NCBI RefSeq assembly: GCF_017643475.1
Contig: NZ_JAEPNI010000001.1
Span: 62,001 to 126,000 of the forward strand
Length of the DNA: 64,000 nucleotides
From: Maricaulis sp.
Lineage (GTDB): Bacteria > Pseudomonadota > Alphaproteobacteria > Caulobacterales > Maricaulaceae
Direction of reading: 5' to 3'
The notes under the pieces were generated by a model, which was given only the letters and a program-made list of their open reading frames with translations, did no database searches and was not told where the DNA came from. The translations under genes were made by a program, and so were the position numbers. Positions 30,176 through 38,185 of this stretch are shown piece by piece; within the stretch, counting starts at the first letter, position 1; each line of letters opens with the position of its first letter.

Positions 30176-31321
30176 ATGCGCAAATTCGTTATCACTGTGT
30201 CCGCTATTGCCCTGGGGGCTTGTCAGCCGGAGACCGAGCCAGCCGCTCCCAACAATATAGTCGCTGCATTGGCGCCGTATTATGAGCAGCTGGATGTGGA
30301 ACGACCACAAGCGCTTCCCGGCGCTGGCGAACCGGCAGCCGACACATTGTTGCAGACCATCCTGTTTGGATCCTGCCACAGCACAGACCGGCCGCTGGAC
30401 ATCCTCGACACGATTGTCGGCCAACAGGGCGATTTATTCATCTACACGGGCGATAACGTCTATGGCGACGCCTATTCCTGGGACCCTTCCCTTCCCGAAC
30501 TACGCTCTGCCTACTCAAGTCTGGCCGCCTCAGAACCTTTTCGGAACCTGCGCCAGTCCACGCCAATTCTGGCGACGTGGGATGACCATGATTACGGCAT
30601 GAATGACTTCGGCGCCCAATTCCCGTTCAAGGGATTTGCCGAAGAGCTCTTCCTGGAGTTCTGGGGTGTCGCCGAGGAGGACGAACGCCGCTCGCGACCT
30701 GGCATCTATACCAGTCGCACGTATGGCCCGGACGGCCAACGGGTTCAGATTATCCTTCTCGATACCCGTTACTTCCGCGGCGCCCTCGCACGTACACCCC
30801 AGCGCAATGCCGTCGGCATGGAGCGCTATGTTCCGACGGAGGATACAAATGTTACCATGCTGGGCGAGGAACAGTGGAGTTGGCTCGCTGAAACCCTGCG
30901 GGAGCCGGCCGATGTTCGCCTAGTAGTTTCCTCCATCCAAGTGCTGGCGGATGGTCATGGCTGGGAAGCCTGGCGTACCATGCCTCACGAGCGTGACCGT
31001 CTTTTTGAGACCATCGAGGCTTCCGGAGCGGACGGCGTGGTCCTGGTTTCCGGCGATCGTCACTCATCAGGCCTATATCTACGCGATGATGTGATCGGTT
31101 ATCCTCTCTACGAAATCACCTCGTCGGCTCTGAACATGTCCTATGGCGATGAAAACAATGAGCCAGGCCCCAATCGCATAGGCGAGATGTATGCGCCGGC
31201 GAATTTCGGCGCCATCGAAGTGGACTGGGCAAACCGCAATCTGTCGCTGGAAATCCGGGATGGTAGCGGTGAAACCGTCCGACAGCAGAGCATTGCTCTC
31301 GACACGCTCACACGCAACTGA
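30176..31321 (+). CDS. PhoD-like phosphatase/phosphodiesterase lipoprotein
   Basis: A 381-residue protein. Lipobox IALGAC at residue 16 marks an outer or periplasmic lipoprotein. The metallophosphatase blocks FGSC, GDNVYGD, TWDDHDYGMND and SGDRHSSG place it in the PhoD alkaline phosphatase group with a binuclear or Fe-Ca site. Expected substrates are phosphomonoesters or diesters in the periplasm. A phosphate-starvation box was not found. It precedes the bufferin operon by 146 nt, but function gives no obvious link. Confidence 0.88.
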   Translation: MRKFVITVSAIALGACQPETEPAAPNNIVAALAPYYEQLDVERPQALPGAGEPAADTLLQTILFGSCHSTDRPLDILDTIVGQQGDLFIYTGDNVYGDAYSWDPSLPELRSAYSSLAASEPFRNLRQSTPILATWDDHDYGMNDFGAQFPFKGFAEELFLEFWGVAEEDERRSRPGIYTSRTYGPDGQRVQIILLDTRYFRGALARTPQRNAVGMERYVPTEDTNVTMLGEEQWSWLAETLREPADVRLVVSSIQVLADGHGWEAWRTMPHERDRLFETIEASGADGVVLVSGDRHSSGLYLRDDVIGYPLYEITSSALNMSYGDENNEPGPNRIGEMYAPANFGAIEVDWANRNLSLEIRDGSGETVRQQSIALDTLTRN

Positions 31322-31467
31322 ACGTGATCTGACGCGCGATAACACGATGGTGACGGCGCGTCGGGCGGACGTTACTGGAAATTTATCTTCTTCCTCGCCT
31401 AGTTTGAGCTGGTCAGGTCGGGCCATCCTGTCCCCCGCTCGACCTCTCAACAAGGAGACACTGAGAG

Positions 31468-31758
31468 ATGAAATCTGAAACCAAGTTCGCTGCCGTAGCT
31501 TCCACGGCCCTGGCACTGTCCCTCGCCACGGCCGCTGCTAATGCCGAAGCCGCAAGTGCGGCAGAGGAAATGGAACAGTGCTACGGCGTATCCCTCGCGG
31601 GTGAAAACGACTGCGCTGCTGGTCCGGGCACGTCCTGTGCCGGCACCTCTACTGTCGATTACCAAGGCAATGCCTGGACCTACGTACCGGAAGGCACGTG
31701 TGAAAGCATTGAAACCCCTTACGGCAACGGTTCTCTCGAGCCGGTTGAACGTCCGTAA
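31468..31758 (+). CDS. bufA1: Bufferin-type RiPP precursor (BufA1, DUF2282)
   Basis: A 96-residue precursor. The N-terminal 25 residues form a signal peptide ([21 protein letters not shown]). The mature part carries four conserved cysteines, C38, C49, C57 and C78, in [35 protein letters not shown] and GTCES, the DUF2282/BufA1 signature. In Caulobacter the corresponding gene product is modified by an MNIO enzyme at Cys and acts as a copper-binding peptide in the periplasm. AAGGAGA precedes the ATG. It is followed by the modifying genes in the same order as known bufferin operons. Confidence 0.92.
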
Positions 31759-31809
31759 CTCTCTCAGCCCTGGCGCCAACCTCGTGTTTGCGCCGGGGGT
31801 GTTCCCGTG

Positions 31810-32661
31810 ATGACCGAACTCCCCGATTCCGCAGGGCTTGCCCTCAAGCCAGAACATTTCCGGCAAGCGCTGGAAACGCCCGCTGAGGGAATGTGGTTCG
31901 AAGTCCATCCGGAAAACTACATGGCTCCGGGCGGTCCGCGGCTGAGCTGGCTCGACGCGTTTGCCGAGAAATTTCCGATATCCCTGCACGGGGTCGGCAT
32001 GTCGCTGGGCGGCATGGATGCCCCGGCCCCGCAACATCTCGATCGCTGGGCACAGCTGATTGACCGCTACAAGCCCGCAGCAATATCCGAACACCTGGCC
32101 TGGACGTCCCATCAGGGAACGCACTTCAACGACCTCTTGCCCGTCCCGGCGACCAGGGCTGCGCTCTCCCGTTTTGTCGAGCATGTGAACATCATGCAGG
32201 ACCGGCTCGGTCGACAGGTATTGATCGAGAACCCCTCGATCTATGTCGCCCTGAAATCAGAGATGAGCGAAGTGGAATTTCTTCGGGAAACCGTCGCTCG
32301 AACAGGCTGCGGCCTGTTGCTGGACGTCAATAATGTGCATGTCAGCTGTCACAATCTCGGTCTCGATGCGATCGCCTATCTCGATGCCTTTCCGCACCAT
32401 GCTATCGGTGAAATCCATATTGCCGGTCATGAAGAAGACACGGCGCTAGGCGGAGAATTGCTGATCGACACTCATAGTGCGCCTATCGTTGAAAGTGTCT
32501 GGTCGCTGCTGGACTACACGCTGGCGCTGACCGGACCACGACCGGTCCTCATCGAGCGCGACACGAACATTCCCACTTTCGAGACATTGTTGACCGACCA
32601 TGTCCGTGCACAGGGTTACATCGATGCAGCCCGTGTTCGGGAGGCAGCCCATGCCAGCTGA
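31810..32661 (+). CDS. bufB: MNIO-family peptide-modifying oxidase (BufB, DUF692)
   Basis: A 283-residue multinuclear non-haem iron oxidase of the DUF692 family, a TIM barrel. Metal and catalytic blocks are MWFEVHPENYM, SLHGVGMSLGG, SEHLAW, LIENPS, LLLDVNNVHVS, EIHIAGHEED and IERDTN. It is expected to oxidise Cys of BufA1 to thiooxazole-type groups with help of BufC. Start: ATG 31810 has GGGGG at good distance; GTG 31807 is possible too. Overlaps bufC by 11 nt. Confidence 0.93.
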   Translation: MTELPDSAGLALKPEHFRQALETPAEGMWFEVHPENYMAPGGPRLSWLDAFAEKFPISLHGVGMSLGGMDAPAPQHLDRWAQLIDRYKPAAISEHLAWTSHQGTHFNDLLPVPATRAALSRFVEHVNIMQDRLGRQVLIENPSIYVALKSEMSEVEFLRETVARTGCGLLLDVNNVHVSCHNLGLDAIAYLDAFPHHAIGEIHIAGHEEDTALGGELLIDTHSAPIVESVWSLLDYTLALTGPRPVLIERDTNIPTFETLLTDHVRAQGYIDAARVREAAHAS

Positions 32662-33412
32662 GTTCAACCAGGCATTCGCGGGCACACTGCTCGGACGAGG
32701 TGACCAGGACCTGCTGGAACACCTCGCAAACCCGGCCCACGCCAAGCGGCTCAATGTCTATCGCAACAACGTTGCCCGCGGTGCGATCGAAGCTCTTCGC
32801 GCGGCCTATCCCGCTGTGAACCGCATCGCGGGCGCGAATTTCTTTTCCCCTATGGCACGACAGTATTGGCTTGATCACCCGCCAACAGACGCGCCGCTCT
32901 TTCTTTATGGCAAGGGTTTCGACCAGCACGTCGCGACCTATGAACCGGCGCGCAGCTTGCCATATCTGCCAACGATCGCCCGCCTCGACCGGGCCTGGCT
33001 GGAAGCACATCACGCTGCTGATACTCCTGCACTCAACCCGTCAGACGTTACAGGCATGAATCCGGAAAGCCTGCCCGAACTCCGCCCGGGCCTGACAGCC
33101 AGCGTTCAATTGTTGACATTGCATCACTCCGCGCACGCGGCCTGGCTGGCCAATCGGCAGGAAGCCGCCGCCGAAGACATGCAGATCGGCGAGAGCGCTG
33201 AACATGTTCTCGTCTGGCGACATCGCGGCACTGTTCAGTCCGCCAGCATCCCGGTTCAACATTTCGACTTTCTGACCCGGATCGCCCGGGGCGACAGCCT
33301 CGGCAGCGCGATGGAAGACGCCAACGATGGCGGCATTGATCCGTCACAATTTTTCTCCCACGGTCTGACCAGCGGCCTGTTCGCTGCAAACCGCCAAAGC
33401 GAGACCCTTTAA
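32651..33412 (+). CDS. bufC: MNIO partner protein (BufC, DUF2063)
   Basis: A 253-residue DUF2063-type protein that binds the precursor and delivers it to BufB. Start ATG 32651 follows GGGAGG and precedes MPAEFNQAFAGTLL. KRLNVYRNNVARGAIEALRA and YPAVNRIAGANFF are family-typical at 40-75, DNA-binding-like helices. A C-terminal half binds the peptide leader by inference. Starts inside bufB and ends on the TAATG junction with bufD, so translation is coupled across the operon. Confidence 0.9.
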   Translation: MPAEFNQAFAGTLLGRGDQDLLEHLANPAHAKRLNVYRNNVARGAIEALRAAYPAVNRIAGANFFSPMARQYWLDHPPTDAPLFLYGKGFDQHVATYEPARSLPYLPTIARLDRAWLEAHHAADTPALNPSDVTGMNPESLPELRPGLTASVQLLTLHHSAHAAWLANRQEAAAEDMQIGESAEHVLVWRHRGTVQSASIPVQHFDFLTRIARGDSLGSAMEDANDGGIDPSQFFSHGLTSGLFAANRQSETL

Positions 33413-33957
33413 TGTCCTCATTCCTGAGCCGGGCCCATGGCCTCTACACCGGCGTCTTTGCCGCGATTGAGAAATCCCTGGGCGGTGATGTCCTGGCCGT
33501 GCTCGCACGCCTGACCCTCGCCGGGATTTTCTGGCGCTCACTCCTGACCAAGGTCGAAACGGTCAAACTGTTCAAATACACCGAGTACATCAACGACTTC
33601 CCGGTCGAGCGTGCGCATGTGCGGCTGCCTGATTTCCCGCTACAGATCCGTCCGGCCACCTATCACCAGTTCAATGGCGATTTCGCGCTACCGCTCATTC
33701 CGGGCGAGCTCGCTGCCCTGATGGCTACCGTGGGGGAGTTCATTCTCCCCATCCTGCTGGTACTGGGCCTGGCGACCCGTTTTGCGGCTGCCGGCCTGAT
33801 GGTGATGACGCTGGTCATCCAGTTCTTTGTCTATCCGGAAGCCTGGTGGGGAACCCATGCGATGTGGGCTGTCATCGCCCTCTATCTGATGGCTAAGGGA
33901 CCCGGGCGGTTGTCTCTCGATCACATGTTCGGAAATAGATTCGCCTCAAAGGCTTAA
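33412..33957 (+). CDS. bufD: DoxX-family membrane protein (BufD)
   Basis: A 181-residue DoxX protein with four membrane helices: AVLARLTLAGIFWRSLLTKV, VGEFILPILLVLGLATRFAA, MVMTLVIQFFVYP and AMWAVIALYLMAKGPGRLS. DoxX proteins occur as last genes of bufferin operons; the role is unknown, perhaps redox or quinone linked. TAATG overlap with bufC. Confidence 0.88.
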   Translation: MSSFLSRAHGLYTGVFAAIEKSLGGDVLAVLARLTLAGIFWRSLLTKVETVKLFKYTEYINDFPVERAHVRLPDFPLQIRPATYHQFNGDFALPLIPGELAALMATVGEFILPILLVLGLATRFAAAGLMVMTLVIQFFVYPEAWWGTHAMWAVIALYLMAKGPGRLSLDHMFGNRFASKA

Positions 33958-34023
33958 TCGGTTGCACGCTTCTCTCCCGCACGTCATCTTGGCTGATACG
34001 GATGGGGATCCGGGGGGATAAAG

Positions 34024-34470
34024 ATGAACAAGGTCTCGGTCGTGTCGACCCAGATTTCGAACAAGCCTGATCGTTTCATGCCGGACTGGGTGCTGGGCCT
34101 GATCGTGCGCCTGTCCATCGTTCCGGGCCTGTGGAGCTGGGGCCGCGCCAATGCCGGTGAAGACTGGCTTGAAGTCTCTCCGGGCATTCTCTCCGCGGTC
34201 GGATACTGGAATATCCCGCTTCTGCCCGATGCCCTTGTCGCCCAGATCGCGGTCTGGGGCGCGCATCTCGCGGCCATCACGCTTCTGCTCGGCTTCCTGA
34301 GCCGCGTGGTCGGATTCGTGCTGGTTCTGGCCGGAGCCGCCTACATATTCTGGATCGCTCCGGATGCCTGGCAATCGGCTGTCGTGTTCGAGGCCATCGC
34401 CTTCTACCTGTTCGCACGAGGCAGCGGAGCCTTGTCGATCGACGGCGCGCTGGCTGCAACAACCCGCTAG
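34024..34470 (+). CDS. Second DoxX-like membrane protein of the bufferin operon
   Basis: A 148-residue DoxX relative: ILSAVGYWNIPLLPDALVAQ precedes AAITLLLGFLSRVVGFVLVL and the terminal FYLFARGSGALSIDGALAA echoes the end of BufD. It is probably a duplicate DoxX gene. GGGGGG lies before the ATG and the gap from bufD is 66 nt with no terminator. Confidence 0.78.
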   Translation: MNKVSVVSTQISNKPDRFMPDWVLGLIVRLSIVPGLWSWGRANAGEDWLEVSPGILSAVGYWNIPLLPDALVAQIAVWGAHLAAITLLLGFLSRVVGFVLVLAGAAYIFWIAPDAWQSAVVFEAIAFYLFARGSGALSIDGALAATTR

Positions 34471-34581
34471 GCACGCTCGTTTTTCAACGGAATCTCATTT
34501 GCGAATTACCGTTTCTCAACCTATGCATCTAAAGGCTATGTCTTAGTCCCTTCTTGCATCGGTCAGGAGAGCGTCGGCCGC

Positions 34582-35964
34582 ATGTCGCCCGATCTCAAAC
34601 AAAAACTCAAAAAGGCCCTCGCCGGGAAGTCCGCGGTCGAGATGGGCCAGTTCCAGTTCGTGAACCTGGATGAGATCCGCTCGCAGGCCGGTGACGAGTG
34701 GCCGGAGATCCGTGACAAGACCTATGAGGTCTCGGGTCATTTCATCGAGAAACGCCTGGCCGACGATGACGTCTTCATTCGTTGCCAGGGCGGTTTCCTG
34801 ATCATTTTCTCCACAATGGGCGGTGTCGAGGCTGAAGCTCATGTCGAGGAGATCAACGAGGAACTCAACGAGTTTTTCCTCGGCGAGCGCTGGCTGGAGA
34901 AGCTGCGCTCCCATGCCGAGGCTCGCCGAGTTCCAACAGACGAATTCCTGAGCATTGTCGCGCGCACGCAGGTTGAGGGCGAGCCCGCCGGTGAGGCGCG
35001 TCCGGAACCTGAGAAAGCCCAGGAAGCCGCTGCAGAGGCCGCGGCCGGCTGGGAAAAGAAACCAGAGTCTGGTGAAGGCCCGAAAGGCGCCAAGGGCGGT
35101 CGCTGGGAGAAGACCACCCAGTCCAAATCGCGTTCCGACAAGGAAGGCGTTCTAGAATGGCCAGACGAGGTCTACGAGGCCAAGGCGTGGGACGAGATCA
35201 TCTTCCAACCGGTCTGGGACAGCCGCACCAACGCCGTCCTGCACCACGTCTGCCAGGTCCGGCGCACAGTCGGCGATCGTCATGTCTATGGTCGCGACAC
35301 ATTGATGGGCATCGATGAAGCCCAAGCGCTGCGAGCACTTGATCGCGAAGTTGCACTCGCGGCGCAGCGCGGTTTCCAATCCGTGTTTTCCAAGGGCGGA
35401 AAGTGCGGGATCACTATCCCGGTACACTACGAGACATTGTCCGCCGTCTCCCATCGCATGGAGTATTTTTCCATCCTGCAGGCGGTTCCCAAACCCATTC
35501 GCAAATACTTCCAGATCCGAGTGGATTCAGTCCCTTCCGGCGCACCGGTGACGCAGATGCAGGAAGTCTTCCGCTCAATGCGCCATTTCGGCTCCAACAT
35601 CCTCGCCGAAATCAGCTACGCCAATAAATGGGATCTCGCCCGCTTTGAAGGCTGCGGGATCAGTGTATTCGGCGCGGCCCTGCCGCAAACACTCAGCATT
35701 CGGGAACCCGGCGACGAGGCCGTAATGGGCTTCATGCAGCTGGTCACACAGGCCAGGGAGCTGCAAGGCGAGGCCTTCCTGAACAATATGGGCAATCCGG
35801 ACCTGCTGAACGCCGCCATTTCCACTGGCATCCGGCTTTTCTCGGGACCTGTGATCGCCAATGACGAGGATGCCCCTCAACCGGCGAGATCGCTTGATTT
35901 TGCCGGCATCGCCAACCGATTACGCAAATCCGGGCCGGATACCGATGTCTTTGAAATCGACTGA
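34582..35964 (+). CDS. Uncharacterised protein with degenerate GGDEF-EAL-like architecture
   Basis: A 460-residue cytosolic protein. Residues 1-120 end with [16 protein letters not shown]...[13 protein letters not shown], the spacing of a GGDEF domain end, with no GGDEF motif. A linker of about 70 residues is Glu/Ala/Lys rich. Residues 200-430 resemble an EAL domain fold: [20 protein letters not shown] (EAL enzymes have QPI.D..G...EAL), but the catalytic EAL glutamate and other metal residues are absent. It could be a c-di-GMP receptor or protein-interaction module. Located between bufferin genes and sucCD. Confidence 0.45.
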
Positions 35965-36077: not shown

Positions 36078-37277
36078 ATGAATATCCACGAGCATCAGGC
36101 TAAAGCTGTCCTGAAATCCTTCGGCGCACCCGTCGCAGACGGCGTAGCCATTTTCTCTGCAGACGACGCAGCCGCCGCTGCGGATCAACTTCCCGGCCCG
36201 CTCTGGGTTGTGAAGTCACAGATCCATGCCGGCGGTCGCGGCAAGGGCAAGTTCAAGGAACTTGGTCCCGACGCCAAGGGCGGCGTCCGCCTCGCCTTTT
36301 CCAAGGACGAGGTCATTTCCCACGCCAGGGAAATGCTGGGCAATACACTGGTCACGCACCAGACCGGCCCGGACGGCAAACAGGTCAACCGCCTCTATAT
36401 CGAGGACGGCGCTGACATCGAGACCGAGCTCTATTGCTCGCTGCTCGTCAATCGCGAAACCGGCCGCGTTTCCTTTGTCGTCTCCACCGAGGGCGGCATG
36501 GACATCGAGGCTGTCGCCGAGGAGACCCCGGAAAAGATCCACACGATCGATATCGATCCGGAGACCGGCGTAACCCCGGCTGATGCGGCCAAGATCGCCG
36601 ACGCTTTCGAGCTTTCCGGCTCGGCACGCGACGACATGCTGTCGCTGGCAGGCATCCTCTACAAGGCCTTCACCGAGAAGGACATGGCGCTTTTGGAAGT
36701 GAACCCGCTGATCGTCATGAAAGACGGCCATATGCGTGTTCTCGACGCCAAGGTCTCCTTCGACGGCAATGCCCTCTTCCGCCATGACGACATCATGGAA
36801 CTGCGCGACGAGACCGAGGAAGACGCCAAGGAAATCGAAGCGTCCAAATACGACCTCGCCTATGTCGCTCTCGACGGCAATATCGGCTGTATGGTCAATG
36901 GCGCTGGCCTGGCCATGGCGACGATGGACATCATCAAGCTGTATGGCGCAGAGCCGGCCAACTTCCTCGATGTGGGTGGTGGCGCGACCAAGGAAAAGGT
37001 CACCGCAGCCTTCAAGATCATCACCGCTGACGAGAACGTCAAAGGCATTCTGGTCAATATCTTCGGTGGCATCATGCGCTGTGACATCATCGCCGAAGGC
37101 GTGGTTGCCGCGGTGAAAGAGGTCGGCCTCCAGGTCCCGCTGGTGGTTCGCCTGGAAGGCACCAATGTCCAGCTGGGCAAGGACATCATCAATAATTCCG
37201 GCCTCAACGTGATCGCTGCTGACGATCTCGACGATGCTGCCCAGAAGATTGTCGCCGCTGTAAAGGGGGCTGAATAA
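36078..37277 (+). CDS. sucC: Succinate-CoA ligase (ADP-forming) subunit beta
   Basis: A 399-residue ATP-grasp beta subunit. It makes ATP or GTP from succinyl-CoA in the TCA cycle, with SucD. The opening [16 protein letters not shown] and [17 protein letters not shown] are family marks. [28 protein letters not shown] and [16 protein letters not shown] form the C-terminal ligase domain. The stop overlaps sucD's start (TAATG), so the two subunits are made in equal amounts. Confidence 0.97.
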
Positions 37278-38185
37278 TGTCTGTGATCGTCAATAAAGAC
37301 ACCAAGATCATCGTTCAGGGCCTGACGGGTAAAACCGGCACCTTCCACACGGAACAGGCACTGGAATATTACGGCACCAAGATGGTCGCCGGCGTGCACC
37401 CGAAAAAGGGCGGCACCACCTGGTCTTCCGGCCTGGAAAGCTCTGCCGAGCTGCCGATCTACACTTCCGTGGGTGAAGCCCGGGAAGCCACCGGGGCCGA
37501 CGCGTCCGTGATCTATGTTCCGCCGGCCGGCGCTGGTGCAGCGATCATCGAGGCGATCGATGCCGAGATCCCGTTCATCGTCTGCATCACCGAAGGCATT
37601 CCGGTCATGGACATGGTCAAGGTGAAAGCCAAGCTGGAGAAATCCAGCTCCATGCTGCTCGGTCCGAACTGCCCGGGCATCCTGACGCCGGAAGAGTGCA
37701 AGATCGGCATCATGCCGGGCTCCATCTTCAAGAAGGGCTCGGTCGGCGTGGTCTCCCGCTCCGGCACGCTCACCTATGAAGCGGTTTACCAGACCTCCCA
37801 GGTTGGCCTCGGCCAGACCACCGCGGTCGGTATCGGCGGTGACCCGGTCAAGGGCACGGAATTCATCGACGTGCTGGAGAAATTCCTCGCCGACGACGAG
37901 ACCGAGTCCATCATCATGATCGGTGAGATCGGCGGTTCTGCCGAGGAAGACGCCGCACAATTCCTGGCGGACGAAGCCAAGAAGGGCCGCTCCAAGCCGA
38001 CCGTCGGCTTCATCGCCGGCCGCACCGCACCTCCGGGCCGCACGATGGGCCATGCCGGCGCCATCGTCTCCGGCGGCAAGGGCGGCGCAGAAGACAAGAT
38101 CGCAGCCATGGAAGCCGCGGGCATCCGCGTCTCCCCGTCCCCGGCACGCCTGGGCGTAACGCTGGAAGACCTGCTCAAGGGCTAG
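37277..38185 (+). CDS. sucD: Succinate-CoA ligase subunit alpha
   Basis: A 302-residue alpha subunit binding CoA and carrying the phospho-His. [19 protein letters not shown]-like N-terminus is the CoA-binding Rossmann part; [19 protein letters not shown] and [14 protein letters not shown] are conserved; the active His is in [13 protein letters not shown] near residue 248. Full length; last gene of sucCD. A GC-rich intergenic stretch with a TTCCCC/GGGGAA hairpin follows. Confidence 0.97.

Follow-up and report, generated by a model that had tools for sequence, protein, structure and literature searches.

The bufferin operon buf1 of Caulobacter vibrioides/crescentus spans CC3254 to CC3257 (CCNA_03363 to CCNA_03366; PMC3511200; PMC8224329). 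In C. crescentus, sigma-F reads this operon from a promoter of the form GTAACC-N16-CGAA and is itself held by NrsF (PMC3511200), with copper acting as an inducer of sigma-F and its regulon (PMC8224329). In Buf1 peptides, the modification falls on the two central cysteines, with a disulfide between the outer two, and sigma and anti-sigma genes have been reported in Buf1 clusters, with further conserved genes at extremely low frequency (PMC12452194). Here, we analyzed a bufferin operon and the DoxX-like gene that follows it (DoxX2) in a 64,000-nucleotide stretch of the Maricaulis sp. genome (NCBI RefSeq assembly GCF_017643475.1, contig NZ_JAEPNI010000001.1, positions 62,001 to 126,000; referred to as the window). 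The reading we favor, with a probability of roughly 0.8, is that the window carries a four-gene Buf1 operon, that DoxX2 is an older and independent gene with its own promoter, and that the sigma-F/NrsF system was lost or never present, a DNA-binding regulator being the probable substitute.

Judged from its genes, the cluster is a known kind of operon for ribosomally synthesized and post-translationally modified peptides, namely, a four-gene bufferin (captophorin) operon of the Buf1 type. As an earlier note on this DNA had claimed, bufA1, bufB, bufC, and bufD adjoin one another, and each falls in its expected family above the Pfam cutoff (DUF2282, 90.1 bits against a cutoff of 22.4; MbnB_TglH_ChrH, 322 bits; DUF2063; and DoxX; Table 1). 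The cluster contains both the DUF2063 (PME type 1) partner gene and the DoxX gene by which Buf1 is recognized. BufA1 begins with a hydrophobic leader that ends in ANA (read by eye from the translation), and all four cysteines ascribed to the precursor are in place. Since the central cysteines are the ones modified in Buf1, modification of BufA1 is expected at C49 and C57. BufB is the product of the sole MNIO gene that a Pfam search detected in this genome, and it is 80% identical to BufB of a genome of the same genus, G093 (G000 is the window's own genome; the other G numbers denote relatives, which are given with family [f] and genus [g] codes). Seven PDB sequences matched BufB, and alignments were compared for 3bww and two chains of 7dz9. 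The motifs LDVNN, IHIAGH, DTH, and ERD were identical to those of the solved MNIO 3bww, bearing out the claim that BufB retains its metal-ligand motifs, and MbnB (7dz9) shares part of them. HvfB, which is closely related to 3bww, requires N175, D242, and H244 (PMC13419390), and the BufB motif residues would occupy the same positions as the active-site N, D, and H of HvfB.

Translational coupling, which had been ascribed to the whole operon, was found for bufB-bufC (11-nt overlap) and bufC-bufD (1-nt overlap, TAATG) but not for bufA-bufB, where the genes are separated by 48 nt, or by 51 nt with ATG 31810 as the bufB start in place of the alternative GTG 31807, 3 nt before it, and a strong hairpin is predicted between them. 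This hairpin was also strong in G093 (z = −3.46) and was not unusual in three further relatives that were folded alongside a control (z = −0.85, −1.21, and −0.17), and a conserved bufA-bufB RNA hairpin was dropped from consideration. As a separate observation, the hairpin of the window might set the ratio of precursor to enzyme.

Table 1. Coordinates of the operon, its candidate control elements, and its neighbors in the window
Feature	Position	Strand	Description
bufA1	31468..31758	+	DUF2282 precursor (Pfam PF10048, 8.6e-26); Cys 38, 49, 57, 78; candidate Sec-type leader
bufB	31810..32661	+	MNIO maturase; MNIO_BufB (NCBIfam NF050167), 353 bits (cutoff 310); PDB relatives 3bww, 7dz9
bufC	32651..33412	+	DUF2063 partner protein, PME type 1 (Pfam PF09836, 4.7e-18)
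bufD	33412..33957	+	DoxX protein of the operon (Pfam PF07681, 9.1e-15); model pLDDT (predicted local distance difference test) 89, extra beta-hairpin
DoxX2	34024..34470	+	Flanking DoxX/DoxD-like membrane protein outside the bufferin operon; 14/14 Maricaulis, own clade
DoxX2 promoter-like element	33940..33990, core 33962-33990	+	TTCGC ... TTGC-N17-CATCTT; overlaps bufD end
Three-half-site element	31340..31378	+	TMAC-N6-GTKA, with GTKA.T[AG]G ~20 nt on; putative regulator-binding site replacing the sigma-F promoter
Weak candidate -35/-10	31375..31403	+	Overlaps third half-site, 17-nt spacer; position only, hexamers poorly conserved
bufA-bufB gap	31759..31806	+	Predicted RNA hairpin, -23.8 kcal/mol, z -3.71
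PhoD-like phosphatase	30176..31321	+	Flanks the slot on the left in several genomes (Pfam PF09423, synteny)
sucC-sucD	36078..38185	+	Right-hand anchor of the slot (synteny)

The earlier note was right that a DoxX-like open reading frame follows bufD. Its assignment to the operon as an extra member was contradicted by the presence of the gene, with an upstream element of its own, at the same syntenic place in genomes without bufferin. Among the 119 genomes of the family surveyed, which were drawn from a larger group, 14 belong to Maricaulis; DoxX2 was present in all 14 and bufB in 9, and the five genomes without BufB (G049, G068, G113, G143, and G219) are the same five that are without DUF2282. 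The second DoxX, for which the earlier note had proposed a gene-order comparison, is conserved, but its presence is not tied to bufferin, and these counts rule out DoxX2 as an operon member conserved together with the bufferin genes. We read the DoxX2 locus in all 13 other Maricaulis genomes, as well as the separate bufferin locus of G054. In eight of the nine bufferin-bearing Maricaulis genomes (window included), DoxX2 comes immediately after the operon; in G054, the two are ~0.9 Mb apart. Both in G054 and in the five bufferin-less genomes, DoxX2 keeps its place, before one or two genes for a 460-amino-acid (aa) protein and a pair of genes that we take, from their sequences, to be sucC and sucD. 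In other genera, DoxX2 preceded sucC by 1.7 to 2.9 kb at all 11 loci read, which were chosen from 29 non-Maricaulis genomes matching the DoxX2 query (some of the matches being BufD), and no bufferin gene was found between DoxX2 and sucC at any of the 11. The order PhoD-bufABCD-sucC occurs without a DoxX2 match in G009, G148, G198, and G004, and G168 has DoxX2 and no bufB match. When bufferin-bearing G226 was compared with bufferin-less G113, DNA similarity ended before bufA and resumed at the end of bufD. The operon thus comes and goes as a whole, and the DoxX2 unit beside it stays intact. On the evidence of gene order, DoxX2 is an older, independent gene and a separate neighbor of the bufferin operon, not one of its members.

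The earlier note had also suggested that DoxX2 may be a local duplicate of bufD. In favor of a fifth bufferin gene of that origin, adding a membrane function, DoxX2 is on the same strand as bufD, follows it after a 66-nt gap in which no terminator-like site was found, and adjoins the operon in most bufferin-bearing Maricaulis genomes (8/9). We nevertheless consider this explanation very improbable, given the persistence of DoxX2 in 5/5 bufferin-less Maricaulis genomes and in G054, whose bufferin genes are elsewhere, the upstream element that it carries in 14/14 genomes, and its descent and residues. In a tree of 33 BufD, 25 DoxX2, and 12 other DoxX proteins, which includes long branches, DoxX2 formed a single clade (support 100/100), and one clade of DoxX2 plus Maricaulis BufD was rejected (approximately unbiased [AU] test; P = 1.88 × 10−5). 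Lys47 and Glu109 were invariant in BufD (33/33), and each position was kept in 10 of 12 other DoxX proteins; neither residue was found in any DoxX2 protein (0/25 for Lys; 0/25 for Glu). Synteny, tree, and residues thus rule out a local duplication of bufD. In this tree, a long branch connects DoxX2 with the BufD proteins of G022 and G057 (both of family f3), a sister relationship that we do not trust. Window DoxX2 matched the Pfam profile DoxD (29.8 bits against a cutoff of 22.7) and gave no Pfam match to DoxX (PF07681). Both proteins were predicted to be helix bundles, with a beta-hairpin at BufD residues 50 to 73 and none in DoxX2; in BufD of G022 and G057, this hairpin region is a gap. A fold search with the DoxX2 model returned no PDB match at E ≤ 0.001, and the best match was NACHO/TMEM35A (Foldseek E 0.18; probability 1.00). 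From the lasting link with sucCD, we would guess at a role for DoxX2 near the respiratory membrane.

The 60 columns before DoxX2 aligned free of gaps in 14/14 Maricaulis genomes, with or without bufferin, and hold an element that starts within the last codons of bufD and consists of TTCGC (TTCTC in G231), TTG, ~20 nt, and CA (in the window, TTGCAC-N17-CATCTT makes up its core). This pattern was present upstream of DoxX2 in all 14 genomes, against 230 of 28,000 random 130-base stretches from the same loci, a control that includes the true sites, for a pattern that was shaped on these very sequences. The element may represent DoxX2's own promoter. A sigma-70 promoter scan of 31200-34700 gave one match, which is at chance level. 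The earlier statement that DoxX2 follows without a terminator stands insofar as a scan found no intrinsic terminator between bufD and DoxX2, but it overlooks this promoter-like element in the gap. An independent DoxX2 might still be recruited by read-through and be partly coinduced with bufferin where the two adjoin. That no terminator was found in the window fits this idea, as does the length of the bufD-DoxX2 gap, 66 to 101 nt across eight genomes (the 101 nt in G103 runs to an internal codon; measured to the first ATG, the gap is 68 nt). However, no sequence evidence for a dependence of DoxX2 on the bufferin genes was found, the slot operon stands without DoxX2 in all three loci of this kind read in genus g3 (G009, G148, and G198), and G168 has DoxX2 without a bufB match; recruitment by read-through is, in our estimate, rather unlikely.

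Three further observations concern the surroundings of these genes. The 460-aa protein between DoxX2 and sucC in Maricaulis (34582-35964 in the window) had no Pfam match, and its gene is present in two tandem copies in G088 and G143 (L071 12046-15093; L076 10391-13243). At two loci of other genera (L077 and L133), a transporter-like open reading frame, identified by eye, fills the DoxX2-sucC gap instead. G009 has a second DUF2282 gene (G009:C1:581304-581465; L209), and the only MNIO gene that the BufB search found there lies near the first.

The history of the operon was followed on two trees. In the BufB tree (34 rows, leaving out G042, G116, G146, G136, G002, G204, G169, and G199, among others, and further BufB-matching genomes), the nine Maricaulis BufB proteins, including the G054 copy, formed one clade (98/97). 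On the SucC-SucD tree, presence of the slot operon required four changes on the best tree, of which at least two were forced by well-supported branches. Repeated loss of the slot operon seems likelier than repeated gain, given that the operons of genera g2 (G004) and g3 occupy this slot as well. Horizontal acquisition by some Maricaulis, in place of loss from others, would agree with the patchy presence of bufferin and with the SigF-linked copy elsewhere in G054. Nevertheless, the single Maricaulis clade and the slot shared with g2 and g3 make losses simpler, and a grouping of the G054 copy with G123 and G226 received a p-AU of 0.13; we regard such acquisition as distinctly unlikely.

For the control of bufA, we took 41 operons from across the order, two of them (G080 and G199) with an uncertain bufA start, and compared up to 240 bases before the gene with a sigma-F pattern, GTAAC[CG]-N15-17-CG[AT]A, and a new pattern of three half-sites, TMAC-N6-GTKA-N14-18-GTKA.T[AG]G. 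The sigma-F motif was present in 14 operons, the new element in 12, neither in 15, and both in 0, counts that are descriptive in that the new pattern was shaped on these sequences and then counted in them. Carriers of the new element are the window, seven more Maricaulis genomes, and four of genus g3 (G009, G148, G198, and G182). Neither the distance to the start codon nor the exclusion of NrsF was built into the pattern; the element lies 125 to 135 bp before the bufA start in 11 of the 12 (175 bp in G231). It is the only match of the pattern on both strands of the window. Across 42 partly overlapping stretches (0.82 Mb, or 1.63 million strand positions on both strands), the pattern had 12 matches, all of them before bufA, in 11 genomes of which one was represented twice.

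The window itself has no match to GTAACC-N16-CGAA before bufA, its genome G000 has no match to NrsF, and the best SigF-like match in G000 was 26% identical (47.8 bits). Over the 41 operons, NrsF exceeded its cutoff in 14/14 genomes with the sigma-F motif, 0/12 with the new element, and 1/15 with neither, the one being G067, in which NrsF accompanies a variant motif outside the strict pattern. For 23 of the 41, the NrsF search followed the assignment of motifs and can to that extent be regarded as an independent test. In G080 and G117, nrsF is on a different contig from the operon. When G054 SigF was used as the query, each of the six other sigma-F-type genomes searched yielded an orthologue (43 to 55% identical), and the best extracytoplasmic function (ECF) sigma matches in the 12 new-element genomes were at most 34% identical. 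G054, the sole Maricaulis genome with a displaced operon (of nine with bufferin; L069), has both sigF-nrsF beside that operon and the sigma-F motif; a Maricaulis maris NrsF is aligned in PMC3511200, which fits strains like G054. Taken together, these results suggest that sigma-F is not what turns on the operon of the window, and a second mode of bufferin regulation is probable.

Several points weigh against the favored reading, besides the descriptive nature of the pattern counts and a read-through from bufD into DoxX2 that may occur, given that no terminator was found between them. Neither promoter type was found in 15 of the 41 operons, among them that of G004 (g2), whose bufferin genes occupy the same slot. 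Promoter type changed at least three times over the 20 rows of known type on the BufB tree, a history that is not simple, and slot position was read for all new-element carriers except G182. It is also conceivable, if doubtful, that the element is a degenerate or alternative sigma promoter served by an ECF sigma other than sigma-F. Its half-sites, GTKA and TMAC, resemble ECF −35 cores, and a loose sigma-F-like match overlaps the element in two g3 operons (G148 and G182). On the other hand, inverted and direct repeats at near-fixed spacing are, in our judgment, more like a transcription-factor site, and the hexamers 17 nt after the third half-site are variable and poor. The fuller proposal, that in Maricaulis and a related genus sigma-F/NrsF was replaced by a dedicated regulator acting on the three-half-site element, such that promoter type and sigF-nrsF covary across the order, strikes us as evenly balanced. 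Such a regulator could possibly be a metal or redox sensor.

On the favored reading of a four-gene operon with an independent DoxX2 and sigma-F-free control, the system would work as follows. By homology, the BufA1 precursor would have its two central cysteines turned into thiooxazoles by BufB and BufC prior to Sec export; once mature, the peptide would bind excess copper in the periplasm, with BufD as a presumed accessory membrane protein. The conversion would cost the peptide about 4 Da per modified cysteine. For a two-repeat peptide, a loss of 8 Da has been reported, and absorbance near 305 nm goes with the modification (PMC13097082). The operon is either present or absent as a unit at one fixed slot, which is bounded by PhoD or other genes on one side and by DoxX2-sucCD on the other, and its probable controller would be a DNA-binding regulator that recognizes the three-half-site element. 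For bufferin biology, this removes the extra DoxX as a false lead. Related Maricaulis genomes that either have or lack the operon at a single slot, together with the two alternative modules that control this peptide, amount to a clean natural experiment, and the identity of the regulator would reveal the stimulus, copper or other, of the sigma-F-free bufferin operon. In the open-licence literature, none of the matches listed (titles and abstract starts) concerned sigma-F-free bufferin control in Maricaulis.

Compared with known systems, the window resembles Caulobacter buf1 in gene order (bufA-B-C-D) and in families, with DUF2282, MNIO (DUF692), DUF2063, and DoxX proteins (PMC3511200; PMC8224329), and BufA1 has the four conserved cysteines of Buf1 (PMC12452194). 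The earlier comparison with Caulobacter thus holds for gene content but not for control: Caulobacter has a sigma-F promoter, sigF (CC3253), and nrsF (CC3252), whereas the genome of the window is without all three and has a different conserved element. DoxX2 shares the DoxD profile and the helix bundle of the DoxX/DoxD family but differs from BufD in being without the invariant Lys and Glu and in its link to sucCD. The gig operons of Cupriavidus metallidurans and Legionella pneumophila comprise the same four families in other hosts; a gold- and copper-responsive promoter has been reported for gig, and an influence of RpoS has been suggested in Legionella (PMC5413113). Finally, in the captophorins, thiooxazole metallophores that include bufferins, oxazolin, and fontiphorin, an MNIO occurs with a PME1 partner and frequently with DoxX (PMC13097082), as it does here.

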